Positions 41,749 to 59,625 of a stretch of 64,000 nucleotides of DNA are shown piece by piece (position 1 is the first letter of the stretch; each line of letters opens with the position of its first letter). The notes below the pieces were generated by a model. The model made no database searches and was not told where the DNA came from. It worked only from the letters and a program-made list of their open reading frames with translations. The translations under genes were made by a program, and so were the position numbers. Origin of the DNA: Jiangella gansuensis DSM 44835 (lineage in GTDB: Bacteria; Actinomycetota; Actinomycetes; Jiangellales; Jiangellaceae); assembly GCF_000515395.1 (NCBI RefSeq), contig NZ_KI911782.1, forward strand, positions 1,155,090 to 1,219,089, read 5' to 3'.

Positions 41749-42067
41749 ATGTTGGGCAAGCGATCTGCGTCTCCGCTTCTGTTACTGCCGCTGTCGAAGC
41801 CGGCCTTCGTGAGCGTGGCCGGCGACCACACGCACGCGTTCGAGAGGTACCAGCACTCCCCCTGACGAGCGGCCCAGCCACGAGTCTCATTGCGCGCGGC
41901 GGACCGCCGGCAACACCGACGACCTGAGGGGCACGATCCTGCCGATCGCCCTCAGCTCGGCACCACGTACCCGAGCCTGCGGGGGCAGCCTGCCCCCGCC
42001 CGACGATCACGACGGTCCGACCCGTCCCGGGATCGACGCGATGGGTGCCCGCAACCCGTCCGGATGA
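41749..42067 (+). pseudogene. Decayed copy of the PQQ-type dehydrogenase gene
   Basis: Three pieces match the intact gene at 42105 in order. The ribosome site and N-terminus (CCGGGAGG then MLGKRS, 41749) match its first residues. A middle piece (RRTAGNTDDLRG, near 41900) matches [12 protein letters not shown], and a later piece (AMGARNP, near 42045) matches AMGFRNP, ending in a stop at 42067. Intervening sequence is deleted and frames are broken. A strong 9-bp hairpin with a 3-nt loop (41979-41999) also lies here. It now forms the leader of the intact operon. Confidence 0.75.
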
Positions 42068-42104
42068 TCCATTCACGTAGAACCGGCAACCCCGGGAGGA
42101 ACAC

Positions 42105-45100
42105 GTGTTGGGAAAACGATCCGTATCGTTACTCCTGTTCTCGGCCCTGCTGTTGTCAGTCATGATCAGCGCACCGGCCACCGCGCACACGACCGACGTC
42201 CACGAGGACACGAACCAGACGTTCGCGGAGTTGTCCGCTGACGACCAGTTCGAGAAGGTGCTGCTGACTCCCGATGTCCCGGAGCCGATGTCGATGGACA
42301 TCGCCGCTGACGGGCGGGTCTTCATGACCAGCCGCGATGGTGTGATCCGGGTGTATCACCCGGAGACCGAAGAGGTGACCGTAGCGGCTGAGCTGAGCGT
42401 GTTCGACGACCATCCGCTGCCGCCCAACCCTGATTTCGAAGGGTCGAAGAACCAGGAGGGAGGTCTCCTGGGGCTGGCGCTGGATCCGGACTTCGAGGCG
42501 AACGGCTGGGTGTACGTGTATTACACCAGCCGCGACGAGAACAACCATTTCCTGTCGCGGTTCGAGGTCGTCGGCGACGAACTCGACATGGCGTCGGAAA
42601 TCGTCATGCTGAAGGTGCCGTACAACAAGACGCACTGCTGCCACGTGGCGGGCGACCTGGAGTTCGATTCCGCGGGCAACCTGTACCTGAGCACCGGTGA
42701 CGAGTCGCCGCCGGACCTGAACCAGCAGTACTCGCCGCTCGACAGCCGGCCGACGCACTGGTACAACGACGACCGCCGGACGTCGGGCAACACGAATGAC
42801 CTGCGTGGGAAGGTGCTGCGCATCACGCCGCAGCCGGACGGCACGTACACGACTCCAGAAGGCAACCTGTTCACCGGGGACGAGGACGGCGGCGGCAAGG
42901 CGCGGCCGGAGATCTTCGCGATGGGATTCCGCAACCCCTTCCGGATCTCGATCGACCCCGAGACCGATCGGCTGCACATCGGCAACTACGGCCCGGACCG
43001 CCTGGGCGACTGGACCGAGCGCGGACCGTGGGGCTTCGACCAGTTCATGGCGACGTCGGAGGCGGCCAACTTCGGGTATCCGTTCTGTATCGGAAACAAC
43101 TACCCGTATCGGCCGTGGAACTACGAGACGAACGAGCCGATGGGCGATTTCTATGATTGCCAGAACGGCCCGGTCAACGACTCGCCGAACAACACCGGTC
43201 TCGACCAGCTCCCGCCGGTGAAGCCGGCGACCATCTATTACCCCAGGAGTTGGGCGGGGTGGCCGGAAAACTGGGTCGGATGGCCGGCTCAGGAGATCAA
43301 CCCGATTCCGGAGCCGTTCCTGAACATGGGGTCCGGCGCTGGTGGACCGATGTCGGGCCCCGTGTATCGCTACGACGAGACCCTCGAGTCCGACACCAAG
43401 TTCCCCGAGCACTACGACGGACGCTGGTTCCTCCTCGAGTTCCACCGCGGTTACATCAAGACGGCCGAACTCGACGAGAACGAGACCATCACCGCGATCG
43501 ACGATTTCATGCCCGGTCAGACCTGGCGCGGCCTCATGGACGGCGAGTTCGGGCCGGACGGGTCGTTGTACGTGCTCGAGGGCGGTGCCTTCGGGGCCAG
43601 CCCGAACGCGGGCCTCTACCGGGTCGACTACGTCAACGATGACCAGCCGCCGCTCGGCGAATGCGTGAGCGACGACTTCGCCGGGACCGAACTCGACCGT
43701 GAGAGGTGGTCGACGATCGTTCGCGAGAACCCGGAGGGTTACCGGCAGGTCGACGGCGCCCTCGAGATCGACATGCTCCAGGGCGACATGATCAGCAATC
43801 ACCTGAGCGGCAACATCAACACCGAGGCTCAGAACCTGATCATGACTCCGGTCCCCGACGGTCGGTGGGTGGCCGAGGTGACGCTCGAGCTGCCGCCGAA
43901 TCCGGTCAGCCACGATCAAGCCGGGTTCATCATCTACAGCGATGACCAGAACTTCACCAAGGCGGCGTTCTTCCCGGCGTATGCCGGCCAGGTCGATGGC
44001 CGGTTCGAGTACCTGTTCCACCAGAACGGGGAGATCCGCTATCAGAGTGGCGTCGACAACCCCACCATCACGAATGCGCCATCGACGATCCACCTCCGGC
44101 TCACCAGTAACGGTGAGGACGTGTCCGCCGCGTACTCGCGCGACGGCGCGACCTGGGTCAATGTCGGGAGAGCAGCCCCGATCTCGCAGTACGAGAACCC
44201 GCAGTTCGGCTTCTTCGCCGCACATGGCCCGAACGCGATCGAGACGCCGCTGACGGCGACGTTCAGCGACTTCTCGCTGTGCCTCCCGGAAGACCCGGTG
44301 TGCGCCGAACAGCCGGTCGACGAGGGCTACCGGGCGTTGTGGGACGGGTCCACGCTGACCGGCTGGAACCAGGCCGGGCCGGGTGGGTTCGCGATTGTCC
44401 CGGACGGGGACCGCGAGGGTACGTGTGCCCTGGAGTCGATCGGTGATCCAGCCGGGCTGGGGATGCTCTGGCACGAGGAGGAGTTCGAGTCGTATCGGCT
44501 GCACGTCGACTTCAAGGCCGTGGCCGAGGACGACAACTCCGGCGTGTTCTTCGGCTTCCCCGACCCCGGTGACGACCCGTGGGTGGGAGTGCGCCAGGGC
44601 TACGAGATCCAGATCGACGACACCGGTGGCTCTCCCGGGGCCGCGGACCGCTCCAAGACCGGGTCGATCTACACGTTCCAGGGCCCGACCTCGTTCCCGG
44701 CCGTCGTCGGCGAGTGGAACGAGATGGAGATCGAGGTCGACGACCCGATGGTGCGGGTGTGGATCAACGACGTGCTGGTGAACGAGTACGAGAACCCGGA
44801 AGGTTCGGGACGTGACCTGGCCTCCGGATTCATCGGCCTGCAGAACAACCGGGTGTCGGACAACGTGTTCTTCCGCGACATCTGGGTCCAGGAGCTGGGC
44901 GGGTGCCCGGAGCCGCAGACACCGCCCGCGGGCTACGTGCCGCTGTACGACGGCGCGACGCTCGACGGATGGACGCAGGCGGGCCCCGGTGGCTTCGCGG
45001 TCGACGAGTGCGGGCTGCTCCAGCCGCACGGCGGCATGGGCCTGCTCTGGTACGACCAGCAGACGTTCAGCGACTACACCATGCGCGTCGACTTCCGGGT

Positions 45101-46658
45101 CCAGGACCCCGCCGACAACTCCGGCGTGTTCGTCCGCTTCCCCGACCCGGAAGGCGATCCGTGGAACCCGGTGAATCAGGGCCACGAGATCCAGATCTAT
45201 GAGGCCACCGACAACCCGCTGGGCCGGACGGGCGCCGTCTACCAGTTCGCGCCGGCCGAGCCGCTGGCCACCAACCCCATCGGCGAGTGGAACACGATGG
45301 AGATCGAGGTGATCGGCCAGGAGTACCGGGTCATCCTCAACGGCACCGAGGTCACCACCTACACCGGTGACGGCAGCCGGCCGCTCGAGGGCTACGTCGG
45401 CCTGCAGAACCACTCAGCAGGTCAGGCCGCCGGCGAGAGCGTGGAGTTCCGCAACGTCTGGATCAAGGACCTCACGAGCGTGCCGGAGCTGACGGTCGAC
45501 GCGTCGGTGGAGCCGGCCGAGCCCGACGGCGCCAACGGGTGGTACGTCTCACCGGTCACGCTCAGCCTGGAGTCGAACAACCCTGACGCGGTGCTGCAGT
45601 GGCGCCCGAGGACCGATGAGTCCCAGTGGCGGACGTGGACCGAGCCGGTGCCGTTCGACACGGACGGGGTCTACAACATCGACTACAAGGCGGTGCTGCC
45701 CGGCGACGGTGGCGGGGAACCGGCCGAGAAGGAGATCCTCGTCGGGGCGGGCGGATTCGGTTTCAGCGAGACCGAGTTCAGCGTCCGGCAAGGCGACACG
45801 ATCAAGTTCCAGTACGTCCCCGGCTACCCGCACGATGTGGTGATCACGGACGACACCGGCCAGGTCCTGGCGTCTCGTCCGGAGGGATCGGACTGGGAGG
45901 ACGATCCGTTCTACTTCGAGGCGGCGGACGTGGGCACCTTCTACGTCTACTGCACGCCGCATTCGAACCGGCCGAATCCGAACGATCCGACGACGTGGGC
46001 CGGCATGGTGTCGACCTTCGAGGTGACTCCGTCCAGTGGTGAGCCGCCGGTGGAGACCGGGATCGAGGAGATCGAGTTCCTGATCGATCAGACGGCTGCG
46101 ACCACCACGGCGTCCCTGGCGGGCGAGCAGGCCGGCGACGTCTTCACCGGTCCGGTGACGGTGACCCTGCAGGCGCGGGACGCCACGTCCGGCGTCGCGC
46201 AGACCCAGTACCGGATGGCTGGCACGGAAGAGCCGACGGTCTACGACGACCCGATCAACGTGACCGATGTCGGAGCCCACACGATCGAGTTCCGGTCGGT
46301 GGACGTGGCCGGCAACGTCGAGGACTGGCAGTCCGTCGAGTTCACCATCGGCGAGGCGGGGCCGTGCCCCGAGCCGGACCAGCGCGAGACCGTCGTGGTC
46401 GGTGACGTCGACAGCGGTGTCCCCAACTACACGCTCGACGACGGGTGCACCGTCAACGACCGCATCGACGAGGACGGGGACTGGGCGAACCACGGAGCGT
46501 TCGTCCGCCACGTTCAGGCGGTGGCCGACCAGCTGGTGGCCGACGGCGTGATCAGCAAACGAGAACGCGGCGCGATCGTCCGTGCCGCAGGCCAGAGCGA
46601 CATCGGTCGCAAGGACAACCGAGGTGGTCCGCACATCAAGTCCGCACACCTGCTCTGA
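42105..46658 (+). CDS. Secreted multidomain PQQ-type sugar dehydrogenase - double DUF1080 - cupredoxin protein
   Basis: 1517 aa with a signal peptide (cleavage near ATAH, residue ~28). Domains: six-bladed GSDH/PQQ dehydrogenase (about 49-510; [20 protein letters not shown] and [10 protein letters not shown]); concanavalin-like DUF1349-type module (about 519-729); two DUF1080 (3-keto-disaccharide hydrolase type) modules (about 741-931 and 943-1123); Ig-like strand module (to ~1205); cupredoxin (about 1214-1311) with full type-1 copper ligands His1243, Cys1283, His1286, Met1301; OmpL47-like module (about 1325-1420); and an unassigned helical C-terminus. Predicted to oxidise glycosides at the cell surface, hand electrons to copper and hydrolyse the keto product; this is inference. 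GTG start with GGGAGGA. Leu9 is TTA. Confidence 0.88.
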
Positions 46659-46771: not shown

Positions 46772-47848
46772 ATGTCGACCAGACGACCGTTCAGCATCGC
46801 CACCCTTGCCACCGCCGTGGCGCTCGTGCTCGTGGGATGCGGTGGAGACGGTGGCGATGCCACGGCGGAGGGGGAGGGCGGCGGCGCCGACGAGGGCCCC
46901 TTCACGATCGGCGTGAGCAACACCTTGGTGGGTAACCAGTGGCGCGAGCAGATGGTGTGTTCCATCCAGGCGCAGGCTCTGGCGAGCGGTGTCGTGGACA
47001 AGGTGGTCCTGGCCAACCGGAACACCGATGCCTCTGGCCAGATCGCCGACATCGAAGGACTGATCGGCCAGGGTGTCGACGCGATCATCGTGAACCCGCA
47101 CGATCGGACGGCGCTGGACGACGTGATCGCCGCGGCGGACGAACAGGGCATCATCGTGATCTCGGTGGATCAGGCGGTCACCGCGGAGGCTGCCTACAAC
47201 GTCACGAACGACCAGGTGGCCTATGCCGAGCTCGGTGCCCGGTGGCTGTTCGAGCAGCTCGGCGGGTCCGGTGACGTGGTGTACATGCGCGGGTTCGAGG
47301 GCAACCCGGCCGACGTGGCAAGGGATGAAGGGTTCCAGGCCGCACTCGCCGACTATCCCGGCATCAACGTCGTGCGTGAGGTGCACACCGGCTGGGACCC
47401 GACCACGGGCGCGCAGCAGGCGCTGGAGATCCTGTCGGCCGCCGAGGTCGACGGCATCTGGACGTCGGGCATCGACTACACGGTCGTGGAGCAGTTCGAG
47501 GCGGCCCGGCACCCCTACGTGCCGATCGTGGGCGCGGACAACAACGGGTTCATCGAGCAGCTGATCGAGTTGAAGGACGAAGGGCTGATCGGAGCGGCCG
47601 TGACGAACCCGCCGCCGGTTGGTGGGGTGGCGACGGCGATAGCGGTCGATCTGCTCACCGGTGCCGAGGAACACCCGCAGGACACCCTGCTGACCCCCGA
47701 AGTCCACGACAACGTCGAGGACCTGGCCACCCTCGAGGAGCTGCATCTGCCGGACCTGCCGACCGGGTTCGTCTCCACGATGGAGTTGGAGCCGTGGACC
47801 ACCTATACCCAGGAGGACGTCCTCGAGTGCCGCGGTCCCGGGGACTGA
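46772..47848 (+). CDS. Sugar ABC transporter substrate-binding lipoprotein (ribose/RbsB type)
   Basis: 358 aa. Lipobox LVGC (Cys23) after a hydrophobic segment, then a Gly/Glu-rich linker. The periplasmic-binding-protein type 1 fold is clear: [36 protein letters not shown] and [11 protein letters not shown]. The ATG at 46772 follows GGAAGGAGA; it lies 113 bp after the dehydrogenase gene and 4 bp before the ATPase gene. The imported sugar is probably a product of the secreted enzyme. Confidence 0.93.
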
Positions 47849-47852
47849 CGCG

Positions 47853-49331
47853 ATGACGGTAGACGGGCAGCCGCTGTTGAGCGTCCGCCAGGTCAGGAAG
47901 GCCTACGGCGGGGTCGTGGCCCTCTCCTCGGCCGACCTGGTGGTTCGGCCGGGTGAGATACACGGCCTGGTGGGCGCCAACGGAGCGGGCAAGAGCACAC
48001 TGGTCAAGATCCTCTCCGGCGTGATCCGGCGCGACGCCGGCACGGTGGAGGTGCACGGCTCGCCGGTGGAGGTGCGCAACCCGAGGGAGGCGGCTGACGC
48101 CGGCCTGGCGACGGTGTTCCAGGACCCGGCGGTGGTGCCCGACCTGACGCTGGGGCAGAACCTGGCGTTGGTCGGGCTCACCCCGGACGACGTGTGGCCA
48201 TGGCTCGAGGAGCTGCGGCTCAGCACGCTGGATCCGGCCGCAATGGCCAAGGACGTGCCGCTGTCGGTCCTGCGGCTGTTCGATCTGGCGCGGGCGTTGG
48301 CGCGCGATCCCCAACTGCTGCTGCTGGACGAGATCACCGCAGCGCTTCCGGGTGACCAGGTGGAACTCGTGTTGGCGCTGATGTCGCAGTGGCGCGAACG
48401 GGGCCGGTCGGTGTTGTTCATCACCCATCGGCTGCGCGAGCTGCAGCGGATGTGCGACCAGGCGACGGTGCTGCGCGACGGGCGTCGTGTCGCGACACTG
48501 GTGCCGGCCGAAGGCACCGAACAGGACCTCGTCCAGGCGATGCTCGGCGAGGCGGCGCCGACGCGCGCCGTCGCCGAAGCCCGGTCCCGTCCCAGTGGGG
48601 CGGCCCGCGCGGTGTTCGAGGCGCGGGAACTGAGTTCGCTGGACTACCTGAAGGGGGTGTCGTTCACGGTATCCGCGGGTGAGGTGCTGGGGCTGGTCGC
48701 GCTGGAGGGGCAGGGCCAGGACCGGCTGTTCGAGGTGCTGTCGGGAGACCTCCCCGCTGACGGCGGACAAGTGGTCGTCGACGGGGAAGTGGTGCGGCCG
48801 CGGTCACCGTACGACATGGTCCGCCGGGGAGTGGTGCTCGTCCCCGCGGACCGGCTGCACGCGCTGCTGCCGCAACGCTCGCTCCACGAGAACCTGTCCT
48901 CGGCGCTGTACAACCGGGTCGCACGGTGGTTCCGGCTGGTCGGCGACGAGCGGCACCGAGTCGCCGAGGCGACCGAACGGCTGCAGATCGACGACCGCGG
49001 ACAGCGTGAGGTGCGCCAGCTCTCCGGCGGGAACCAGCAGAAGGTCGCGGTGGGCCGCTGGCTGGCCGCGGGCTTCGGCACGCTGCTGTGTTTCGACCCG
49101 ACCCGCGGCATCGACGTCCGCACCAAGGAGCAGCTCTACCGGCTGCTACGTGAGCTCGCCGACGCCGGTGCGGCGGTGCTGTACTACACCAGCGAGTTCG
49201 TCGAGGTCCCGCAGGTCTGCGACCGGGTGCTGGTCATGTACGACGGCCGCATCGTCGACGAGCTCGAGCCCACGGCCGACGAGGCGAGCATGCTGGCCGC
49301 AGCCCATGGCCTGGGGAAGGCGACGCTATGA
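47853..49331 (+). CDS. Sugar ABC transporter ATP-binding protein (RbsA-like, two ATPase halves)
   Basis: 492 aa. The first half has Walker A GANGAGKST, Walker B LLLLDEITAALPGDQ and H-loop FITHRL. Its signature is degenerate (LSVLRLFDLARAL, two residues short of the usual LSxGxQQ pattern, with no Gln). The second half has a non-canonical P-loop (LVALEGQGQDRLFE), as in RbsA proteins, and an intact signature LSGGNQQKVAVGRWL with FDPTRGID. So the two composite ATP sites are unequal. It overlaps the first permease gene by 4 bp. Confidence 0.93.
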   Translation: MTVDGQPLLSVRQVRKAYGGVVALSSADLVVRPGEIHGLVGANGAGKSTLVKILSGVIRRDAGTVEVHGSPVEVRNPREAADAGLATVFQDPAVVPDLTLGQNLALVGLTPDDVWPWLEELRLSTLDPAAMAKDVPLSVLRLFDLARALARDPQLLLLDEITAALPGDQVELVLALMSQWRERGRSVLFITHRLRELQRMCDQATVLRDGRRVATLVPAEGTEQDLVQAMLGEAAPTRAVAEARSRPSGAARAVFEARELSSLDYLKGVSFTVSAGEVLGLVALEGQGQDRLFEVLSGDLPADGGQVVVDGEVVRPRSPYDMVRRGVVLVPADRLHALLPQRSLHENLSSALYNRVARWFRLVGDERHRVAEATERLQIDDRGQREVRQLSGGNQQKVAVGRWLAAGFGTLLCFDPTRGIDVRTKEQLYRLLRELADAGAAVLYYTSEFVEVPQVCDRVLVMYDGRIVDELEPTADEASMLAAAHGLGKATL

Positions 49332-50347
49332 CGGCCCCGACCACGGAGAGGACGCGCGCCGACCGTGCCCGGTCGGTGGCCCGCCGGCAGGCTCGCCGGC
49401 ACGGCTGGACGGTGGGAGTGTGGCTGCTGCTGGTGGTCATGCTGGTCTGGTACGCGACGCTGATCCCGCAGTTCGGGGACTTCCAGCTCACGTCGATCGC
49501 CAAGAACAGCCTCCCGACCGTCTTCCTCGCCCTCGCTCAGGCCGTCATCGTGATCGCCGGCGGCATCGACGTCGGCATCGGCGCGCTGATGGTGCTGGCC
49601 AACTCGGTGGCGGCCAGGCTCATGGAAGGCCAGCCCTTCGTGGTGACCGTCGCCATCGGGCTCGGCGTCGTCGTCGGATCGGCGTTGCTCAACGGCCTGG
49701 TGGGCTGGACCATCGTGCGGTCCGGGGTGCCCGACGTCGTCGTCACCCTGGCCACGCTGTTCATCTTCACCGGCCTGGCTCTCCTCGTGCTCTCCTCGCC
49801 CGGGGGCGGCACCAGCCCCGGCCTGCGCCTGATGTTCACCGGCTCGGAGACGGGGGTGGGTTCCAACTATGTGCCGTCGTTGCTGGCGTTGGCGATTCCG
49901 GCGATCATCCTGTCCTGGTGGCTCACGCGGACCAGGCGGGGACTCGCGCTGTACGCGATCGGCAGCGACACCAGCGCCGCCTTCCTGTCCGGGATCGACG
50001 TCGGGCGGGCGAAGATCAGGTCCTACGCGGTAGGCGGCGCGTTCGCGGGACTGGCCGGTGTCGCGTTGGTGGCGATCTCCAACTCCGGCGACCCGCGGTT
50101 CGTCAACGCCCTGAACGGCACCCTCAACAGTCTGGCCGCTGTGGTGCTCGGCGGCGTCCTGCTCGGCGGCGGCGTGGGCTCGGTCATCGGCGCGACGGCC
50201 GCGGGCATCATGCTGTTCACGCTCAACCCGGTCCTCACCGCCATGGGCATCGACCCGAACACCGCGCAGATCGTGCGCGGAGCGCTCATCGTCGCCGTGA
50301 TGATGGCCGCCGGGCTCCTCGAATGGCGTCGACGGAGGCGCACATGA
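49328..50347 (+). CDS. Sugar ABC transporter permease 1 (RbsC/BPD_transp_2 type)
   Basis: 339 aa, about eight to ten hydrophobic helices after an Arg-rich start. Landmarks are VIVIAGGIDVGIGALMVLANS and the loop YAIGSDTSAAFLSGIDVGRAKI, which contacts the ATPase, plus the late GGVLLGGGVGSVIGA helix. It overlaps both neighbours by 4 bp (ATGA), consistent with tight coupling. Paired with the next gene, so the channel is probably a heterodimer. Confidence 0.93.
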   Translation: MTAPTTERTRADRARSVARRQARRHGWTVGVWLLLVVMLVWYATLIPQFGDFQLTSIAKNSLPTVFLALAQAVIVIAGGIDVGIGALMVLANSVAARLMEGQPFVVTVAIGLGVVVGSALLNGLVGWTIVRSGVPDVVVTLATLFIFTGLALLVLSSPGGGTSPGLRLMFTGSETGVGSNYVPSLLALAIPAIILSWWLTRTRRGLALYAIGSDTSAAFLSGIDVGRAKIRSYAVGGAFAGLAGVALVAISNSGDPRFVNALNGTLNSLAAVVLGGVLLGGGVGSVIGATAAGIMLFTLNPVLTAMGIDPNTAQIVRGALIVAVMMAAGLLEWRRRRRT

Positions 50348-51369
50348 CCGACCGACAAGCAACCACAGCCCCGCCGAAGCATGCGGCCGCAGCCGAACCG
50401 GCGGGCTCGGCACCGCGCCGGTCGCTGCGACGGGCTCTGGTGGACCACCCGCTGCTGGTCCTGGGCGGCGTACTGGTCGTCCTGGTCCTGGCCACCGGCG
50501 TGATCGAACCCAACTACCTCAGTCTGCGCGGGTTGCGGAACACCCTGCTGCTGGCCGCTCCGCTCGGGATCATGGCGGCCGGACAGACGCTGCTGATGCT
50601 CACCCGCGGCATCGACCTGTCCGTCGCCATGATCGCCACGGCCGCGGCGTACGTCGTCGGCGCCCAGGCCGGCGGCAGCCTCGCCGTGGCCATCGTGCTC
50701 GGCCTGCTGGTCGGCGCGGCCGCTGGCGCGGTCAACGGAGCGGGGGTCGGGATCTTCCAGGTCCATCCCCTGATCATGACGCTGGCCATGTCGACCATCC
50801 TGCTGGGCGTACTCACGCAGCTGGCGCAGTCGGTCTTCGTCGACGCCACGTCGACACCGGATTTCGTGCGCACTCTCGGCGTCGGCACCTTCGCCGGCGA
50901 TCTGATCCCCTGGAACGCACTCATCTGGGCCGGCCTGGCCACGATCATCATCGTCGGGCTGCGCCGCACCGGGTTCGGCCGGATGCTCTACGCCGTCGGC
51001 GACAACCCCGTCGCCACCAGGCTGGCCGGCGTGCGCACCTGGCAGGTGCTTATCGCCACGTACGCCCTCTCCGGACTGTTCGCGGCGTTGGCCGGGATCC
51101 TCATCGCGGGCCAGACCGGCGCCATCGACCTGCAACTGGCCCAGGAACTCCTGCTGCCGTCCATCGCCGCGGCGGTCATCGGCGGCACGTCCATTTTCGG
51201 CGGTCGCGGCAGCTACTCGGGGACCATCCTCGGCGCGCTCATTCTCAGTGTGCTGTCCAGCATGCTGACGTTCCTTGACACGCCTCAGGCGTTCAAACAG
51301 GTGATCTTCGGCCTCATCGTGCTCGGCCTCGCCTGGCTCTACGCGGCCGTCACCCGAACCCGGGACTAG
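50344..51369 (+). CDS. Sugar ABC transporter permease 2 (RbsC/BPD_transp_2 type)
   Basis: 341 aa with the same architecture: LLMLTRGIDLSVAMIATAAAYVV, the ATPase-contact loop YAVGDNPVATRLAGVRTWQV and GGTSIFGGRGSYSGTILGA. The ATG at 50344 lies in the overlap with the preceding stop. Last gene of the transporter operon; a hairpin follows at 51377. Confidence 0.93.
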   Translation: MTDRQATTAPPKHAAAAEPAGSAPRRSLRRALVDHPLLVLGGVLVVLVLATGVIEPNYLSLRGLRNTLLLAAPLGIMAAGQTLLMLTRGIDLSVAMIATAAAYVVGAQAGGSLAVAIVLGLLVGAAAGAVNGAGVGIFQVHPLIMTLAMSTILLGVLTQLAQSVFVDATSTPDFVRTLGVGTFAGDLIPWNALIWAGLATIIIVGLRRTGFGRMLYAVGDNPVATRLAGVRTWQVLIATYALSGLFAALAGILIAGQTGAIDLQLAQELLLPSIAAAVIGGTSIFGGRGSYSGTILGALILSVLSSMLTFLDTPQAFKQVIFGLIVLGLAWLYAAVTRTRD

Positions 51370-51605: not shown

Positions 51606-52817
51606 ATGACCCAACCCGGACCAAGTGGCGGGCCGCAGATGCTGCGGTTGATGAACTGCGCCGCAGTGTTGTCCGCCATCAGGGACGCCGGGACGGCGCG
51701 CGTGACGGAACTGATGCGAGCGACCGGCCTGTCCCGCCCCACGGTCACCGCGGCGGTCTCGACCCTCGTCGAGGACGGACTGGTCGAGGAAGCCGAGGCA
51801 CTGGAACTCGACCAGCCCCGGATGGGCCGGCCGCCGCGCGTGCTGAGGTTCCGCGCCGAGGCACGATACGTGCTCGGTATCGACGTCGGCCCGAACCGGG
51901 TCCTCTGCACGGTGGCCGACCTCAACGGCACCGTCGTCGCCAGCGGGCGGCGCGACGTCGCGACAGCGGGTGCGCGCACCAAACTGCTCGAACGTGTCGA
52001 GGCGACCATGCGCGACGTGCTCGCGGAGGCCGCGGTTCCACCGTCCGCGCTCGCGGCCGTAGGCGTCGGGACACCAGGCATCGTCGACCCCCGCCGCGGC
52101 ACGGTCGTGCGGGCGCCGTCCGTGCCGGGCTGGGATTCTCTCGAACTCGGCAGCCTGCTGCGCGACAGCGTCAACTGCCCCGTGCACGTCGAGAACGACG
52201 TCAACCTCGCCGTCATGGCCGAGCGGTGGCGTGGTGCCGGCAGCCAAGCCGACGACCTGCTCCTCGTGCAGTGGGGATCCCGGGTGGGCGCCGCCGTGCT
52301 GGTACGGGGGCAACTGCACCCCGGTGCCCACGGGGCGGCCGGCGAGATCGGGTTCGTGGATCTCGAGGAGCAACCGCAGGGCGTGCAGGCTTACGGACAC
52401 GGCCCGCTCGAGTCCGCGGTCGGCACCGCGTCGATGCTCCGCCGGGCCCGCCACCTCGGCGACGACGAGAGTCAGGATGCCGCGGCCGTCCTCATCGCAG
52501 CGGGTGAAGGCGACGCACGAGCTCTCCAGGTGCTCGACGAGGCCTGCGCACTCATGGCGCGCGGGCTCGCGGCCTTCGTGATGGCGATCGACCCGGAACT
52601 CGTCATCGTCGGCGGCGAGATCATCCTGGCCGGTGACGCCGTCCTCGACGCGCTGCGGCGGCATCTCGCCAGGCGCGTGCTGGTGGCGCCCCCCATCGAA
52701 CTGTCCCGCCTCGGCGACGACGCCGTCGCGCTGGGTGCCGTGCGCCTGGCCCTCACCGACGCCCAGCAGCGTCTGCTGGACCCGTACACGGCACCCAGCG
52801 TCAAATCACCGAGCTGA
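51606..52817 (+). CDS. ROK-family transcriptional repressor
   Basis: 403 aa. N-terminal winged helix (about 15-80, [28 protein letters not shown]), then the ROK sugar-kinase-like fold ([41 protein letters not shown]). The Cys-rich zinc motif CxCGxxGCxE is absent; the equivalent region [21 protein letters not shown] has no Cys. It probably represses the glycoside operon through the shared 26-bp site until a sugar binds. Its 3' end overlaps the convergent dehydrogenase gene by 12 bp. Confidence 0.92.
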
Positions 52818-54020
52818 CGTCGGCGACGTCATCACGCGGTCGACGAAATCGCCCGTGTCCTCGTCCTTCAGGATCATCCGCCGCTGCCCGTCCGGCAGCA
52901 CCTCGGACTTCACGACCGTGAGGCCGTCGTGCTTCTCGGCCTCCCGGCTGATGCGCGGTGTCGTGCCGCCACGCCAGTCGATCTCGATCGGTTCCCACCG
53001 CTTCGACCGAGCCGACCGATAACACGCATCCATGATCGAGTTGACGACGTAGCCGTCATAGAACGTCTCACGCGGCGCCCGGCCCTCCTCCAGCGCGGAC
53101 AGCATGTCCGTGAACATGTCGACATAGCCGAGTTCGACCACCTCGTCGCCGACGGGGAACAGCCAGCCGGAGTCCGTTTCCGCCTTCTCGGCGACGTACC
53201 CGCCGCTTCGCCCGGTGGTGAACATCTCGAAGCCCACCCGCGGGAAGTGATCGAGCCTGAGCGTCCCTTCGGTGCCGGAGACCTCGTCCCGCAGGTCCAA
53301 GCCGCCGCGGAAGGTCCAGCTGACCTCGAACTGACCAACCGCTCCGGACTCGAAGCGGATCAGCGCGATCGCGTTGTCCTCGTCCTCGATCGGGTGGACG
53401 AAGGTGTCCGTCCAGCACATGACCTCGACCGGGCGGTTGCCCTTCCCCATGAAGCTGCGGATGATCTCGATGCAGTGGCAGCCGAGGTCGATGATCGCGC
53501 CGCCGCCGGTGAGGCGGCCATCCCAGAACCAAGCCGAGTGCGGGCCGGGATGCGACTCCCGGGACCGCACCCACGTCACGTCCCCGACCGCGCCCGCGGC
53601 CACGCTGGACAGCGCCTTGAGCGTCTTCGGCGTGTAGCACAGGTCCTCGAGGTAGCCGGCGAAGATGCCCGCCTTCTCGACGAGGTCGAGCATCCGCTTG
53701 GCTTCCTCGCCGTTGCGTCCCAGCGGCTTGGTGCACAACACGGCCTTGCCGGCGTCGGCGCACAGTGCGATGGCCTCTTCGTGCAGGTGGTTCGGGAGGC
53801 CGACCACCACGACGTCGGTCTCCGGATGCCGGATCGCCGCCTCGAGGCTGGTCGTCGACTCAGGGATGTTCCAGTCGGCTGCGAACGCCTCAGCACGTTC
53901 GCCGGTGCGCGAGTAGACGACGCGGATTCTGTCCCGGCTGCGCTGCCCGTGCAGCGCCGCGGCGTAGAACCCGCCGATCAGTCCCGTTCCCAGCATGGTG
54001 ATGGCGCGGTCGTTGCTCAC
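52806..54020 (-). CDS. Gfo/Idh/MocA-family NAD(P)-dependent sugar dehydrogenase
   Basis: 404 aa. Rossmann start [18 protein letters not shown], the KP motif as CTKPLGRN (Thr in place of the usual Glu), and the catalytic helix [12 protein letters not shown] with Asp and His. The GTG at 54020 follows AGGGGAA; the longer frame to 54227 has no such site. It likely reduces or oxidises a keto-sugar in the cytoplasm and so complements the secreted dehydrogenase/DUF1080 protein. Members of this family act in known 3-keto-glycoside pathways. Confidence 0.9.
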
Positions 54021-54618
54021 GTGATCGTTCCCCTTCCCTAGAAGGCCGGTGGAGCGGCTGGTGATGACCAGGCGTTGGATCCGCGAGGTGCCGGGTCGGA
54101 CACCGCCGGCACGTCTCGCACGAGCGGGAACGGCCGTCGGCGCCGAGCTGATCCGACATAGACAATCTTCTTTCAAAAACTCCGCCGAATCAATGCCGGC
54201 CGCCGAGGAAAGAGGTGCTCGGCGCACGTTCGCGAGCGATCAGGTCGCATCCACCGACCGCCGGTGATTCATCCTTACTCGCCGGTGATTCCCTCACGGG
54301 CATGGAGTGAGTCATTCATAACGATTTCGTGACGTTCACTACTGGGGCCGACTCCGGCCTGGGCGGAGGATGTGGACGCAACCAGTGCGTCGGAGGTGTC
54401 CAGGATGGAGGACCAGAATGAGGCGTTCTGTACGACCAGTGTCCTGTTCTGGGCCTCGGCCGACCGCCGGCGTAGCTGGTGCCTGACGACCCGGGATACC
54501 ACGCCGGACCCGGCGACCGGCTCCGCTGGGCGGCGCGGCGACACTCGACACGGACCTCGGCCTATGCCGCCGGTTCCTGGTCTGACGATCGTGCCCGGTT
54601 CGATCACGGGAGTGTCCG
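54021..54618. other. Regulatory region between the sugar dehydrogenase and lanthipeptide genes
   Basis: About 600 bases without a convincing gene. It must hold the divergent promoters of the Gfo/Idh/MocA gene and the LanKC gene. Visible structure includes a 12-bp direct repeat at 54259-54291 and a relatively AT-rich patch near 54160-54180. Short frames (for example from 54372) lack lanthipeptide-precursor features. Confidence 0.5.
54259..54291. promoter_or_regulatory. Direct repeat CGCCGGTGATTC, 21-bp spacing
   Basis: Identical 12-bp copies at 54259-54270 and 54280-54291, exactly 21 bp apart (two helical turns), on the same face of the DNA. This would suit a NarL/FixJ-type dimer such as the regulator at 63016-63621. 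The site is about 330 bp before lanKC, which is far, so the link is tentative. Confidence 0.35.
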
Positions 54619-57288
54619 GTGATCGACCAGTATGAGCTCTACTGCCTGGCTGACCAGGCCTTTTACGACGCGCCCGCCAACACGGACGCCGGTGGCCCGG
54701 ACTTCACCATCGCGGCGCGGCCGGTCCCGGATGGCTGGGAACACCAGGCGACGGACGTCTGGTTGAACTACGCACCGCGTGAGCAGTCGCTCCCGTCGCA
54801 GGGCTGGAAGATCCACGTCTCGTCCGACCTGGAGGACGCCGACCGCGTACTGGACGCCGTTTGGGACTACTGCGTCCCCCGCGGACTGGCCTTCAAGTTC
54901 CTCCGCAGCCGACCGGTCATGGTGATGTTCAACTCCAAGTCCGCCTTTCGCGGATCGAGCGGCAAGCTCGTGACCATCTATCCGGCCGATGCCGACCAGT
55001 TGGAGCTCGTCCTGAAGGAGCTGGACGGCGCGCTGCGCGGCATCAACGGTCCTTACATTCTCAGCGACCTGCGGTACGGCGACGGCCCGCTCTTCGTCCG
55101 GTACGGGGCCTTCGCGGAACGTCATTGCGTGAACGCGAGCGGTGAGCGGGTTCTGGCGATCGAGGATGATCAGGGACGGCTCGTTCCCGACGTACGCGGG
55201 CCGGTCTTCGCCTGTCCGCCCTGGGTCGGCCTGCCCGAGTTCCTCGAGCCTCACCTGGAGGCCAGGAACGCCGTGACGGTCGCGGGCCTGCCCTACGACA
55301 TCGAGAGCGTCGTGCAGTTCTCCAATGGCGGCGGCGTGTATCTCGGGCGGATCCGGAGCACCGGGGAGCGGGTGGTGCTGAAGGAGGGCCGTCCGCTCGC
55401 GGGGCTCGACGTCGCCGGCCGGGACGCGGTGGCCCGGGTGTCGCACGAGCGGGACATCCTGGGGCGCCTGTCCGGGCTGTCTGCCGTGCCCGCAGTGCGC
55501 GACTATTTCACCCTCGGCGGGCACCACTTCCTGGTCATGGAGTTCGTCGACGGCAACCCGCTGCAGCGTCTCGTCGTGGACCGGTATCCGCTCACGCATC
55601 CGGATCCGTCGTCGGAGACCGTGACCGCATACACGGAGTGGGCGCTCGGGATGCTCGCGCGAGTCGGCCAGGCGATGGATGCCGTCCACGAGCGCGGCGT
55701 GGTCTTCGGCGATCTGCATCCGGACAACATCCTGGTGGCCGGCGACGGCCGCCTCGTCCTCGTCGACTTCGAGGTGTCGTCCTTCGCCGAGTCAGGTGGC
55801 CGATCCGCGTTGGCGCACCCGGGATACGGCGCGCCGCCCGACCGGCACGGCATCGAGGTCGATCGGTATGCGCTGGCTTGCCTGTTCTTCGGGCTGTTCG
55901 CACCCCAGACGACGATCATGCTGCCTCTGCATCCGGCCAAGGCCGTCCACGTGGCTGAACTCGTGACGCAGATCTTCCCCGTGCCCGCCGCGACGGTGCA
56001 GGACGTGGTCCGGACGATCCTCGGACCGGCCGGCGACGCCGCCCCCACCACGATGCGTGCGTTGCCGATGCCCGGGGTCGCGAGCTGGGAGCACGTTCGG
56101 GCGTCGATGTGCCGGGCCATCGTCGCCAGCGCCACCCCTGAGCGCGAGGACCGGCTCTTCCCCGGCGACATCGCCCAGTTCGAGGCCGGCGGGGGCATCA
56201 ACGTCGCACACGGGGCGGCTGGCGTGCTGTACGCGCTGGCTCGGACCGACGCCGGCAGGTTCCCGGAGTACGAGGACTGGCTGTGCGCTCGCGCCGCAGC
56301 GCCACCACGCGGAACGGGCGTCGGCTTCTACGACGGCCTGCACGGCGTGGCGCACGTGCTGGAGGATCTCGGGCACCGGCAGGACGCGCTCGACACGATG
56401 CAGTTGTGCCTGGCCGGCGACTGGCGGTCTCTGGAACTCGGCCTGTACTCCGGGCTCGCCGGGATCGGCCTCAACCTCCTGCACTTCAGCGAATGCACTG
56501 GTGAGCGAGAGTTCGTCACCGAGGCGGCCGCCGTGATCGACGCCGTCGCCGACCGCCTCGGCGGACCTGAGGACGTGCCCGACGTCAGCGGCGGCGACAA
56601 CCCACGTGCCGGACTGATGTTCGGCTCGTCCGGGCCGGCCCTGCTGTTCATCCGCGCCTACGAGCGGACCGGTGACGCGGCGCTGCTCGACCTGGCTGCG
56701 ACGGCGCTGCGGCAGGACCTGCGCCGGTGTGCCCAGGACGAGGACGGGACGATGCAGGTCACCCAAGGATGGCGAACGCTGCCCTACCTCGACGAGGGTT
56801 CGATGGGGATCGCGTTGGTCCTCGCCCGCTACCTGACGCACCGCCAGGACGAGGCGTTCGCGGGGGCGCTCGACGCCTTGCGGCGGGTGGCGCGGGCCGG
56901 CTACTTCGTGCAGCCGGGCCTGTTCACCGGGCGCGCCGGCATCATCGCCGGGGCCGGCATGCTGGGGCGCGCCGGCGCCGGGCCGGCCGAGCCGTCGGAG
57001 CTGTCCGAGCTGACCCGCTGGCTGAGCTGGCACGCGCTGCCCTATGACGGCGGGCTCGCGTTCCCCGGCGACCAGTTGCTACGTCTCTCGATGGACCTGG
57101 CCACCGGAACGGCCGGGGTCCTCCTGGCGCTCGGATCGGCGCTCCACGACCGGCCGGTGTTCCTGCCGTTCCTCGAGCCGGCCGGGCCGGTTGCGACCAC
57201 GGCCACCTCATCCACCCCGCGCGAGGCCGAGCTGGCGCTCGCGGACGACGTCCGGGAGGAGGCGCACTCGACCACTACGCCGTCTTGA
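54619..57288 (+). CDS. Class III lanthipeptide synthetase (LanKC, RamC/AmfT-like)
   Basis: 889 aa, trifunctional: lyase, Ser/Thr kinase and cyclase. The N-terminal ~190 residues form the phosphoSer/Thr lyase region. The kinase domain (about 225-480) has the Lys strand RVVLKEGRP, catalytic GDLHPDN (Asp365) and LVDFE (Asp383). The C-terminal LanC-like domain (about 520-860) has HGVAHVL, YSGLAGIGLNLLHF, LFTGRAGIIAG and DLATGTAGVLLAL repeats but no Cys-Cys-His zinc ligands, as expected for class III. GTG start with GGGAG six bases before it. Followed 30 bp later by the precursor gene, the same order as ramC-ramS. Confidence 0.95.
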   Translation: MIDQYELYCLADQAFYDAPANTDAGGPDFTIAARPVPDGWEHQATDVWLNYAPREQSLPSQGWKIHVSSDLEDADRVLDAVWDYCVPRGLAFKFLRSRPVMVMFNSKSAFRGSSGKLVTIYPADADQLELVLKELDGALRGINGPYILSDLRYGDGPLFVRYGAFAERHCVNASGERVLAIEDDQGRLVPDVRGPVFACPPWVGLPEFLEPHLEARNAVTVAGLPYDIESVVQFSNGGGVYLGRIRSTGERVVLKEGRPLAGLDVAGRDAVARVSHERDILGRLSGLSAVPAVRDYFTLGGHHFLVMEFVDGNPLQRLVVDRYPLTHPDPSSETVTAYTEWALGMLARVGQAMDAVHERGVVFGDLHPDNILVAGDGRLVLVDFEVSSFAESGGRSALAHPGYGAPPDRHGIEVDRYALACLFFGLFAPQTTIMLPLHPAKAVHVAELVTQIFPVPAATVQDVVRTILGPAGDAAPTTMRALPMPGVASWEHVRASMCRAIVASATPEREDRLFPGDIAQFEAGGGINVAHGAAGVLYALARTDAGRFPEYEDWLCARAAAPPRGTGVGFYDGLHGVAHVLEDLGHRQDALDTMQLCLAGDWRSLELGLYSGLAGIGLNLLHFSECTGEREFVTEAAAVIDAVADRLGGPEDVPDVSGGDNPRAGLMFGSSGPALLFIRAYERTGDAALLDLAATALRQDLRRCAQDEDGTMQVTQGWRTLPYLDEGSMGIALVLARYLTHRQDEAFAGALDALRRVARAGYFVQPGLFTGRAGIIAGAGMLGRAGAGPAEPSELSELTRWLSWHALPYDGGLAFPGDQLLRLSMDLATGTAGVLLALGSALHDRPVFLPFLEPAGPVATTATSSTPREAELALADDVREEAHSTTTPS

Positions 57289-57318
57289 CCCCACGAGCTA
57301 TGGAAGGAGGTGTAGACG

Positions 57319-57447
57319 ATGGTTCTCCTCGACCTTCAGGGAATGGAGGCTCCTGGCCGCAAGGGCGGTGGCGGCGGCAGCACGCTGACCGTACTGACCT
57401 GTGGCTCGGTCAAGCCGAGCAACCTCAGTGTCGCCTTGTGTCACTGA
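57319..57447 (+). CDS. Class III lanthipeptide precursor (SapB/AmfS-like), 42 aa
   Basis: Starts MVLLDLQGME, the LLDLQ leader motif recognised by class III synthetases. The leader ends in a Gly5 run (16-20). The core is STLTVLTCGSVKPSNLSVALCH. It holds two rings of the form S/T-x-x-S/T-x-x-x-C: Ser21-Thr24-Cys28 and Ser34-Ser37-Cys41. This spacing is identical to SapB, with a five-residue linker (GSVKP) where SapB has two. Ribosome site GGAGG lies 8 bases before the ATG. Expected to be dehydrated and cyclised by the upstream synthetase, then exported. It could be a surfactant morphogen like SapB; activity is unproven. Confidence 0.93.
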   Translation: MVLLDLQGMEAPGRKGGGGGSTLTVLTCGSVKPSNLSVALCH

Positions 57448-57454
57448 GCGATCC

Positions 57455-57492
57455 CGGGTCCTGGGCGACGGCCGAACCTCGCCCAGGACCCG
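57455..57492 (+). terminator. Strong stem-loop between precursor and peptidase genes
   Basis: Perfect 14-bp stem CGGGTCCTGGGCGA (57455-57468) with its inverse (57479-57492) and a 10-nt loop, 7 bases after the precursor stop. No T tract follows, so partial termination or 3'-end protection is more likely than a full stop, giving more precursor mRNA than mRNA for the downstream genes. Confidence 0.75.
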
Positions 57493-57513
57493 TACGGCCG
57501 GAAGGGAGGGCCG

Positions 57514-59625
57514 GTGTCTTCGACGGATCGGATGCCCGTCGTCGTCTATCCGACGGCAGCGCGTCAGGCGATCGCCGACCGGCTTCACGGGCACGTCGTG
57601 CGCGATCCGTATCGGTGGCTGGAGGACGCGTCGAGCCCGCAGACGCGGGAATGGCAGGCCGCCCAGGACGATCTGTGGCGGCGTTTCCGTGCCTCGCTCC
57701 TCGGCCGGGAGCGGCTGCAGGCCCGCGTTGCCGAACTGTCGGACGTGGGAGTGATCACCGCCCCGATGTGGCGCGGAGACCGCCGCTTCGGCCTGCGGCA
57801 GACCGCCCAGCAGGAGCACCCGGTGCTCTACACCGCCGGGCCGGACGACCACGAGCGCGTCCTGGTGGATCCGATGACCATCGATCCGTCCGGTGCGACG
57901 ACGCTCGATCACTGGCAGCCGGACCTCGACGGCCGGCTGTTGGCCTTCCAGCTGTCGCGGTACGGGAGCGAGTGGGCGCAGCTCTACGTCATGGACGTCG
58001 CGTCGCGCGACGTGGTCGACGGGCCGATCGACCGCTGCCGGTACTCCCCGGTGGCCTGGCTACCCGGCGGCACGGCCTTCTTCTATGTCCGTGCCGTCCC
58101 CGGGTCACCGGCCGGCGCCCGGCGCGTCTACCTCCACCGGCTCGGGACGCCGGCCGAGGACGACATCCCGATCCACGTTCCGGTCACCGAGCCGGACCGG
58201 GACGAGGGTTCCTCGTTCGGTCTCGGGATCAGTCCCGACGGTCGCTGGCTGGCGATCTCGGAATCCCGGGGCACCGCGAGCTCGAATGATGTCTGGCTCG
58301 CCGATCTCTCCGCGTCGACGTGGGCGGATCCGGCTCTGCGGGTCGTACATGAGGGCGTGGACGCCCGGACGGCGTTGGACGTCGGCACCGACGGGCGGAT
58401 GTACGTCGTCACGACGCTCGGAGCGCCTCGCGGCCGGCTGTGCGTCGGTGACCCAGCACGCCCGGACCCCGAGTCCTGGCTCGACCTCGTTCCCGCCGAT
58501 CCGGAGGCGGTGCTCAGCGATTTCGTCATTCTGGACGGTCCCGATCTCCAGCGGGCCGTCCTGCTCGTCGGCTGGACGCGGCATGCCCTGAGCGAGGTCA
58601 GCGTGCACGACCTCGCCACGGGCGAGCGGCTGGGCCAGGTGCCGCTTCCCGGACCCGGGTCGATCGGCCCACTGACAAGGCGCCTCACCGGCGCGCACGA
58701 GACCTGGTTCACCTATACCGACAGCGCCACCCCGGGAGCCGTGTTCCGGTACGACGCTCGCACCGGCGAGACCACGCCATGGGCCCGGTCGCCCGGTTCC
58801 GCAGTCGTTCCCGAAACGCTGGGCCGCCAGATCGTCTACGCCTCGGCGGACGGCACGCCGGTGCGCATGGTGGTCCTGGCCCGGCCCACCGGCGAGGCCG
58901 GTCCACGGCCGGCCATCCTCTATGGCTACGGCGGCTTCGGCGTGCCGATGACGCCGGCCTATTCGAGCTTCACCCTGGCCTGGGTCGAGTCGGGCGGCGT
59001 CTTCGCGATCGCCCACCTGAGGGGCGGCGGAGAGGAGGGCGAGCAGTGGCATCGCGCCGGCACACGTGAGCGCAAGCAGAACGCCGTCGACGACTTCGTC
59101 GCGGCGGCCGAGACGCTGATCTCGGAGGGCTGGACCAGCGCCGATCAGCTCGGTGTGTGCGGCGAGTCGAACGGCGGCCTCGTCGTCGGTGCGGCGCTGA
59201 CGCAGCGACCGGAGCTGTTCGCCGCCGCGGTGTGCTCGGCTCCGGTGCTCGACATGGTGCGGTACGAGAACTTCGGTCTCGGTCCGGCGTGGCGAGCCGA
59301 GTACGGCAGCGCCGACGACCCGGACCAGCTCCGGTGGCTGCTCGGGTATTCGCCCTATCACCACGTCCGCGCGGGCGTCGACTATCCCGCCGTGCTGTTC
59401 ACCGCCTTCGGCAACGACTCGCGAGTGGATCCTCTGCACGCCCGGAAGATGTGCGCGGCCCTGCAGTGGGCGACGGCGGGCTCGCGTCCGATCCTGATGC
59501 GCCTGGAGGACGAGGCCGGCCACGCGGACTCGGCCTCCACCCGAGGCGTCTCGCTCGCCGCGGACATCCTCGCCTTCGTCGCGGCCCAGACCGGGCTCGA
59601 TCTCGCGGGAGGTGGCGGGGCATGA
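57514..59625 (+). CDS. Prolyl oligopeptidase (S9A), probable lanthipeptide leader peptidase
   Basis: 703 aa cytosolic serine peptidase: N-terminal segment RDPYRWLED, a seven-bladed propeller (about 75-430), and the hydrolase domain with Ser552 (GESNGG), Asp635 (GNDSRVDP) and His670 (EAGHAD). GTG start after AAGGGAGGG. Class III loci sometimes carry such an enzyme; FlaP of the flavipeptin locus cleaves the modified peptide after Pro. The precursor here has Pro12 in its leader (MEAPGRK), a suitable site, and also Pro33 in the core between the rings, which must be protected or be a second site. Confidence 0.93.
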   Translation: MSSTDRMPVVVYPTAARQAIADRLHGHVVRDPYRWLEDASSPQTREWQAAQDDLWRRFRASLLGRERLQARVAELSDVGVITAPMWRGDRRFGLRQTAQQEHPVLYTAGPDDHERVLVDPMTIDPSGATTLDHWQPDLDGRLLAFQLSRYGSEWAQLYVMDVASRDVVDGPIDRCRYSPVAWLPGGTAFFYVRAVPGSPAGARRVYLHRLGTPAEDDIPIHVPVTEPDRDEGSSFGLGISPDGRWLAISESRGTASSNDVWLADLSASTWADPALRVVHEGVDARTALDVGTDGRMYVVTTLGAPRGRLCVGDPARPDPESWLDLVPADPEAVLSDFVILDGPDLQRAVLLVGWTRHALSEVSVHDLATGERLGQVPLPGPGSIGPLTRRLTGAHETWFTYTDSATPGAVFRYDARTGETTPWARSPGSAVVPETLGRQIVYASADGTPVRMVVLARPTGEAGPRPAILYGYGGFGVPMTPAYSSFTLAWVESGGVFAIAHLRGGGEEGEQWHRAGTRERKQNAVDDFVAAAETLISEGWTSADQLGVCGESNGGLVVGAALTQRPELFAAAVCSAPVLDMVRYENFGLGPAWRAEYGSADDPDQLRWLLGYSPYHHVRAGVDYPAVLFTAFGNDSRVDPLHARKMCAALQWATAGSRPILMRLEDEAGHADSASTRGVSLAADILAFVAAQTGLDLAGGGGA

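Follow-up and report, generated by a model that had tools for sequence, protein, structure and literature searches.

What might a secreted bacterial protein do that carries, on one chain, a sugar dehydrogenase-like propeller, two modules of a family linked to 3-keto sugars and a copper domain? The question is raised by a 64,000-nucleotide stretch of the Jiangella gansuensis DSM 44835 genome (hereafter the window; contig NZ_KI911782.1, positions 1,155,090 to 1,219,089), in which an open reading frame (ORF) of 1517 aa with a GTG start on the plus strand (42105-46658) joins a GSDH domain, two DUF1080 modules and a cupredoxin. We hypothesize, with about even confidence, that this fusion forms, as one secreted chain, the front end of a pathway for the use of 3-keto-glycosides. 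Under this scheme, a glycoside outside the cell would be oxidised at one of its hydroxyls, most probably that of C3, by the GSDH propeller with a quinone-type or other cofactor, and the electrons would be handed on singly, first to the type-1 copper domain of the same chain and then to a further acceptor. The keto-sugar would be imported by the adjacent ATP-binding cassette (ABC) transporter and reduced in the cytoplasm by a Gfo/Idh/MocA enzyme, with a ROK regulator controlling the cluster. An extracellular oxidise-and-eliminate system, the keto product of which is imported and reduced, is the simplest account, and it agrees with the four-step pathway outlined in PMC10628242, in which an oxidation is followed by elimination and hydration and a Gfo oxidoreductase then carries out the reduction. 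The data establish the anatomy of the domains, the conservation of ligands, catalytic residues and gene context, and the return of these parts in other arrangements; the catalytic steps, the C3 position, the cofactor, the transfer of electrons and the way in which the modules divide the work are inferences.

The domain order of the fusion, obtained from Pfam, NCBIfam and the sequence itself, is signal peptide, GSDH, concanavalin-like, DUF1080, DUF1080, Ig-like, cupredoxin, OmpL47-like and C-terminal domain, with the following window coordinates and the evidence for each element in parentheses:

42105..42185, + strand, signal peptide, residues 1-27 (by eye from the sequence)
42237..43649, + strand, GSDH six-bladed propeller, residues about 45-515 (Pfam, model, catalytic columns)
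42642-42644 and 42930-42935, + strand, GSDH catalytic codons of H180 and of R276/N277, respectively (alignment columns)
43650..44279, + strand, concanavalin-like domain (DUF1349/GH43_C2), residues 516-725 (Pfam)
44316..44897, + strand, DUF1080 (PF06439) module a, residues 738-931 (Pfam; fold match to 9fbe, 8rr2 and 3osd)
44931..45467, + strand, DUF1080 (PF06439) module b, residues 943-1121 (Pfam; a separate gene in Saccharomonospora saliphila)
45480..45725, + strand, putative Ig-like domain, residues 1126-1207 (kept in orthologs)
45726..46034, + strand, cupredoxin, residues 1208-1310 (Pfam, ortholog alignment, phmmer)
45831-45833, 45951-45953, 45960-45962 and 46005-46007, + strand, copper ligand codons of H1243, C1283, H1286 and M1301, respectively
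46146..46349, + strand, OmpL47-like domain, residues 1348-1415 (NCBIfam)
46356..46616, + strand, C-terminal domain, residues 1418-1504 (repeats within the genome)

The Pfam matches include GSDH at residues 60-340 (110.9 bits against a cut-off of 25), DUF1349/GH43_C2 at 522-725 and PF06439 (3keto-disac_hyd) in two stretches (260.5 bits against a cut-off of 26.8), whereas OmpL47 is an NCBIfam match in two stretches, the best of which is 1348-1415. The original prediction, made from the sequence of the window, had named all these domains in this order and missed only the C-terminal domain (about 1418-1504); the list and order are borne out by the Pfam and NCBIfam matches and by conservation among orthologs, and secretion of the polypeptide is supported by the signal peptide recognised by eye. 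A chance or mis-assembled ORF is ruled out because the same domain order is found in other genomes.

Full-length orthologs (79-84% identity) are encoded in 9 of the 11 other genomes of the genus and in 3 of the 10 other genomes of the family, and a tenth genome of the genus contains an interrupted ortholog. A scan of named genomes with two peptide patterns, which was not exhaustive, showed that S. saliphila, a member of another family, also carries an ortholog of the fusion. In the alignment of the window protein with 13 orthologs, the share of invariant columns is the highest in the GSDH domain (68%), followed by the cupredoxin (60%), with 26% in the C-terminal domain; the loci L067-L074 discussed below apparently coincide with 8 of these 13 rows and do not count as independent evidence. 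Within the class sample, the cupredoxin domain is present in 12 of 197 genomes, all from one family. A degraded second copy of the fusion, with a short frame and a cupredoxin that has lost its Cys, was also detected (L066, G015:C4); its neighbours are a gene for a binding protein and one that looks ROK-like by eye.

The model of the GSDH domain (residues 40-520; predicted local distance difference test score, pLDDT, 84.5; predicted template modelling score, pTM, 0.90) has its best fold matches among aldose sugar dehydrogenases of the pyrroloquinoline quinone (PQQ) type, specifically, 3a9g (Z 40.9, root-mean-square deviation 2.3, 328 residues aligned), 2ism (Z 40.7), and PQQ-bound 3das (37.4), followed by the soluble glucose dehydrogenase (sGDH) 1c9u (31.0), HHIP (Z 29.8) and AA12 (28.7, 14% identity). 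In a profile alignment, H180 corresponds to the general base His144 of sGDH and R276/N277 to Arg228/Asn229. All three residues are invariant in the 20 rows of our GSDH alignment; these rows were chosen from 32 GSDH stretches, with overlapping duplicates and additional close orthologs set aside. The fusion has the six-bladed propeller (Z 31-41), the catalytic His and the Arg/Asn pair in common with Acinetobacter sGDH (1c9u), Escherichia coli Asd (2g8s), the Pyrobaculum enzyme (3a9g) and Streptomyces Adh (3das), but differs from them in not keeping the PQQ-anchoring Lys/Arg/Arg positions, in its far larger multidomain architecture and in having two adjacent Cys residues ahead of the catalytic His. 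This pair, Cys178-Cys179 (window 42636-42644 together with His180), directly precedes His180 and is found in 13 of the 20 GSDH rows; the two residues could be joined by a vicinal disulfide close to the cofactor. Membership in AA12 was considered and ruled out, given that the Pfam scan found no cytochrome domain and that the match is one of fold only (Z 28.7, 14% identity).

Both DUF1080 modules match PF06439 individually (138.2 and 132.5 bits against the cut-off of 26.8) and retain the NSG, ExQ, TGxxY and GEWN motifs. Module a matches DUF1080 structures at Z 16-17, from a poor model, module b reaches solved DUF1080 chains by sequence (E 0.002-0.007), and a profile common to both modules (A3) finds these chains with E values of 1e-11 to 1e-12. 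Among these solved relatives, 9fbe and 8rr2 are titled '3-keto-glycoside eliminase/hydratase' and 8tda and 8v31 '3-Keto-2-hydroxy-glucal-hydratase'; BT2157 (3osd) is also related. All share with the modules their fold and family and, probably, 3-keto-sugar chemistry but are stand-alone proteins, whereas the fusion joins two modules to a dehydrogenase and a copper domain. Because of these titles, the label 'keto-glycoside hydrolase' that was originally given to the modules probably names the wrong chemistry, the reaction being more plausibly elimination plus hydration; with both eliminase and hydratase among the relatives, the two modules could split these roles between them. In the account of PMC9007349, DUF1080 is genetically linked to the use of 3-keto-disaccharides, with DUF1080 proteins tied to 3-ketotrehalose and, via mutant fitness, to the use of lactose.

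The cupredoxin of the fusion falls just below the Pfam threshold (Copper-bind, residues 1213-1287, 19.8 bits against a cut-off of 21.2), and its ortholog from S. saliphila passes it (21.5 bits). The assignment is stronger than this score suggests. In a phmmer search, the domain reaches plastocyanins of the PDB at E 3.8e-7, with H1243, C1283 and H1286 aligned to the plastocyanin His, Cys and His. The four type-1 ligands proposed from the sequence, His1243, Cys1283, His1286 and Met1301, were numbered correctly and are invariant in all 14 rows of the ortholog alignment.

The link between such a dehydrogenase, DUF1080 and a one-electron carrier, which the original prediction had proposed for the fusion, recurs in other arrangements: as adjacent genes, as haloarchaeal and Runella fusions and as a gene pair on a Streptomyces plasmid. 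In S. saliphila, the fusion contains module a only (86% identical), whereas module b (83.5%) forms a secreted protein of its own, which carries a similar C-terminal domain and is encoded two genes away. At a second type of locus, which we call split, a ThuA-GSDH-C-terminal domain-DUF1080 gene is followed on the same strand by a gene for cupredoxin, OmpL47 repeats and C-terminal domain; this arrangement was seen at 13 of 13 loci (12 genomes of the same genus and one of another genus), and all 13 cupredoxins differ from that of the fusion in having the classical C-x-x-PGH-x-x-M ligand loop. On a plasmid of Streptomyces fungicidicus, a ThuA-GSDH gene is followed by a single gene that combines cupredoxin-like, OmpL47, C-terminal and DUF1080 parts (164 bits for the cupredoxin part, by a model built from one sequence). 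The plasmid records with this type of GSDH include three (of 13) with a carrier fused in the best-matching GSDH protein, namely, Halocatena (plastocyanin-like-GSDH, carrier 38.5 bits), Haladaptatus (GSDH-cupredoxin, 28.5 bits, with a second GSDH protein at 36.0 bits) and Runella (GSDH with cytochrome c, 36.4 bits), and four with DUF1080 in the same or the adjacent gene (Natronococcus, Nonomuraea, S. chartreusis and S. fungicidicus). The uncharacterised Runella protein (GSDH-PKD-cytochrome c-CBM6) resembles the window protein in belonging to the same GSDH clade and in its fused one-electron carrier but has haem instead of copper and no DUF1080. In Natronococcus, a DUF1080-GSDH gene lies near an AP_endonuc_2-DUF1080-DUF1080 gene; the latter, in Natronococcus sp. 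CG52 (L149, 10254-12548), fuses an AP_endonuc_2 TIM barrel to two DUF1080 modules. In Nonomuraea gerenzanensis (L154, 7689-10283), one frame encodes ThuA, DUF1080, CBM6 and glycosyl hydrolase 99 and adjoins a GSDH-PKD-CBM6 gene.

In the GSDH tree (42 rows), support is high for each of the window-type (100/100), split (100/100) and haloarchaeal (100/98) clades, but the branches that join them are weak, with a FastTree support of only 0.28 for fusion plus split. The type and position of the carrier differ between the clades, which suggests more than one carrier-fusion event.

The genes downstream of the fusion in the window are the following:

46772..47848, + strand, sugar-binding lipoprotein of an ABC importer (Peripla_BP_4; Pfam match from 46817, start by eye)
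47853..49331, + strand, ABC transporter ATPase (Pfam)
49328..50347, + strand, ABC transporter permease (BPD_transp_2; Pfam)
50344..51369, + strand, second ABC transporter permease (BPD_transp_2; Pfam)
51606..52817, + strand, ROK-family regulator with a winged helix-turn-helix (Pfam)
52806..54227, - strand, Gfo/Idh/MocA oxidoreductase (Pfam; 68% identical homolog in S. saliphila)

All 10 loci examined, the window included, have a ROK regulator and genes for a sugar importer, and nine have Gfo/Idh/MocA; the ortholog-bearing genomes G001, G003, G008, G010 and G015 were left out of this comparison. In each of the nine other loci (eight from Jiangellaceae and one from S. saliphila), a ROK homolog (66-76% identical) adjoins the fusion gene. 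At seven of the eight Jiangellaceae loci, downstream of the fusion lie a complete CUT1-type importer, made up of a binding protein and two permeases, and a pair of Gfo/Idh/MocA genes (77-96% identity to those of L067); the remaining locus (L072) ends with its contig after part of the first permease. The window and S. saliphila have in common a non-CUT1 type of importer and one Gfo/Idh/MocA gene each. The importer type thus varies between loci while the set of roles is kept. In Halocatena, genes for a sugar phosphate isomerase/epimerase, an ABC importer, GSDH and Gfo/Idh/MocA are found together.

The weak points of the proposed pathway are the position of oxidation (C3 versus C1), the cofactor, the long His-Met loop and the final electron acceptor, and a series of observations, collected here and in the next paragraph, weighs against it. 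Characterised sugar dehydrogenases of the GSDH fold are thought to oxidise C1, so that the formation of a 3-keto product by this domain is conjectural; in the complex with L-fucose described in PMC6881810, it is C1 that faces PQQ. The residues of sGDH that anchor the PQQ carboxylates, Lys377, Arg406 and Arg408, correspond, in a sequence register only, to His447, Gly476 and Met478; Lys or Arg occurs in none of the 20 GSDH rows at the Lys377 and Arg408 columns, and Arg in 5 of 20 at the Arg406 column. No PqqC was found in the window genome or its 15 listed family members by a search that exceeded its cut-off in 2 of 197 genomes of the class and is therefore able to find the family, and the best PqqE match in the window genome reaches 60.7 bits against a cut-off of 381.35. 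The description of the dehydrogenase as 'PQQ-type' therefore stands as to the fold and the conserved catalytic His, Arg and Asn but is less certain as to the cofactor, the pocket being kept at H180, R276 and N277 and not at the anchor positions, and we file the domain by its fold rather than as a proven PQQ enzyme. PQQ sites do vary: as presented in PMC6881789, Trp563/Asn564 of AA12 stand in for Lys377, and two of its three PQQ-binding arginines are conserved in sGDH and Asd. Other residues could therefore substitute in the fusion as well, and PQQ may be scavenged from outside. The same evidence bears on the possibility, doubtful in our view but not far-fetched, that the GSDH domain is an ordinary PQQ aldose (C1) dehydrogenase working on scavenged PQQ, with DUF1080 using 3-keto sugars made by others and the fusion merely gathering domains. 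The best fold matches are indeed aldose sugar dehydrogenases, the catalytic residues are conserved, and E. coli makes no PQQ yet uses external PQQ (according to PMC13088180); the missing anchors, however, speak against such an enzyme, and free aldoses need no module that cleaves 3-keto-glycosides, yet the pairing recurs in several lineages. The pathway reading in its most specific form, namely, one secreted polypeptide that oxidises, eliminates and hydrates outside the cell, with GSDH as a glycoside 3-dehydrogenase with a remodelled, non-classical cofactor site, a long-loop type-1 copper outlet and DUF1080 modules as eliminase and hydratase, is in our view unlikely.

At the copper site, 14 residues separate H1286 from M1301, an unusually long ligand loop, and the sole model that covers it has a pLDDT below 50 there, so that M1301 is retained as a candidate axial ligand. 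The model of residues 736-1420 is poor (pLDDT 63, pTM 0.40), and copper proteins are not among the 50 fold matches listed for it, which, in a search that essentially tested module a, speaks neither for nor against the copper site. In the cupredoxin-DUF1080 protein of S. fungicidicus, Copper-bind was not reported by Pfam at E <= 0.01. Ten of the 13 plasmid records with this GSDH have no fused carrier and nine have no DUF1080 in the same or the adjacent gene, so neither partner is obligatory for the dehydrogenase. Furthermore, the fusion gene was not found in one genome of the genus (G004), a profile of the whole 736-1420 region was matched in the window genome only in a phylum sample of 396 genomes, and in Jiangella aurantiaca (L073, 7740-12337) the ortholog is split within the concanavalin-like domain into two overlapping frames, through either gene decay or assembly error. 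A different role for the copper domain, for instance in copper storage or as electron donor to another copper enzyme or an oxidase, in place of that of direct acceptor for GSDH, is quite unlikely in our assessment: a multicopper oxidase gene is indeed located beside the S. fungicidicus pair and another near the Natronococcus genes, but the presence of different carriers (three cupredoxin arrangements and one cytochrome c) on this GSDH clade agrees with a role as its electron acceptor. For HHIP, a propeller of the GSDH-like kind, no enzyme function is known. This resemblance (Z 29.8), the lectin-like fold of DUF1080 and the missing PQQ anchors would be compatible with a catalytically dead propeller that acts, together with DUF1080 and the concanavalin-like domain, as a carbohydrate- or surface-binding scaffold, the cupredoxin being a copper-binding relic. 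Such a scaffold seems about as unlikely, given that GSDH is the most conserved part of the protein, that its catalytic residues and the copper ligands are invariant (20/20 and 14/14 rows, respectively) and that the transporter and oxidoreductase context recurs.

Every single domain of the fusion is known, and so are fusions of dehydrogenases with carriers (AA8-AA12). A close analogue is the AA8-AA12-CBM1 pyranose dehydrogenase of Coprinopsis, likewise secreted and multidomain, which shares the fold and brings its own one-electron carrier; it differs, as described in PMC6881789, in that the carrier is a cytochrome b rather than a copper domain, DUF1080 is lacking and PQQ binding is proven. By the account of PMC9007349, the lactose pathway of Caulobacter (LacABC plus DUF1080) resembles the proposed one in that oxidation outside the cytoplasm precedes cleavage by DUF1080 and that genes for a transporter, an epimerase and a reductase are located nearby, but relies on an unrelated dehydrogenase (LacABC) and on separate proteins. 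In the literature searched, which covered few subscription journals, we found neither a description of GSDH, DUF1080 and copper in one protein nor a joint treatment of DUF1080 and ThuA with a dehydrogenase. So far, 3-keto-glycoside metabolism has been tied to LacABC-type or NAD-dependent enzymes (for the LacABC-type link, see PMC9007349). If the proposed pathway is correct, the GSDH fold would gain a place in this metabolism, with copper as the fused electron outlet of the dehydrogenase, and a testable role would be provided for secreted multidomain proteins of actinobacteria, haloarchaea and Bacteroidota that at present bear no annotation beyond 'PQQ-dependent sugar dehydrogenase' or 'ThuA domain-containing protein'.

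The C-terminal domain (about 1418-1504), for which the Pfam scan gave no match at E <= 1, was detected at 10 further sites of the genome, and its motif NHGxFVRHV...RERGxIxRAAxxSDxGR is common to many large proteins encoded there. Ten places with a GSDH domain, the fusion included, were found at 3.71-3.86 Mb and elsewhere; most carry ThuA, PKD, CBM6 and concanavalin-like domains, and in several of the GSDH paralogues the last domain is FIMAH. Immediately upstream of the fusion gene, on the same strand (41855-42091), is a decayed GSDH piece that contains a stop and is 41% identical to residues 210-287 of the fusion. Beyond the Gfo/Idh/MocA gene, the region 54619-63037 encodes a RamC_N/kinase/LANC-like protein (54619-57288), a prolyl oligopeptidase (57514-59625) and an ABC transporter (61070-63037), and looks like a lanthipeptide cluster.

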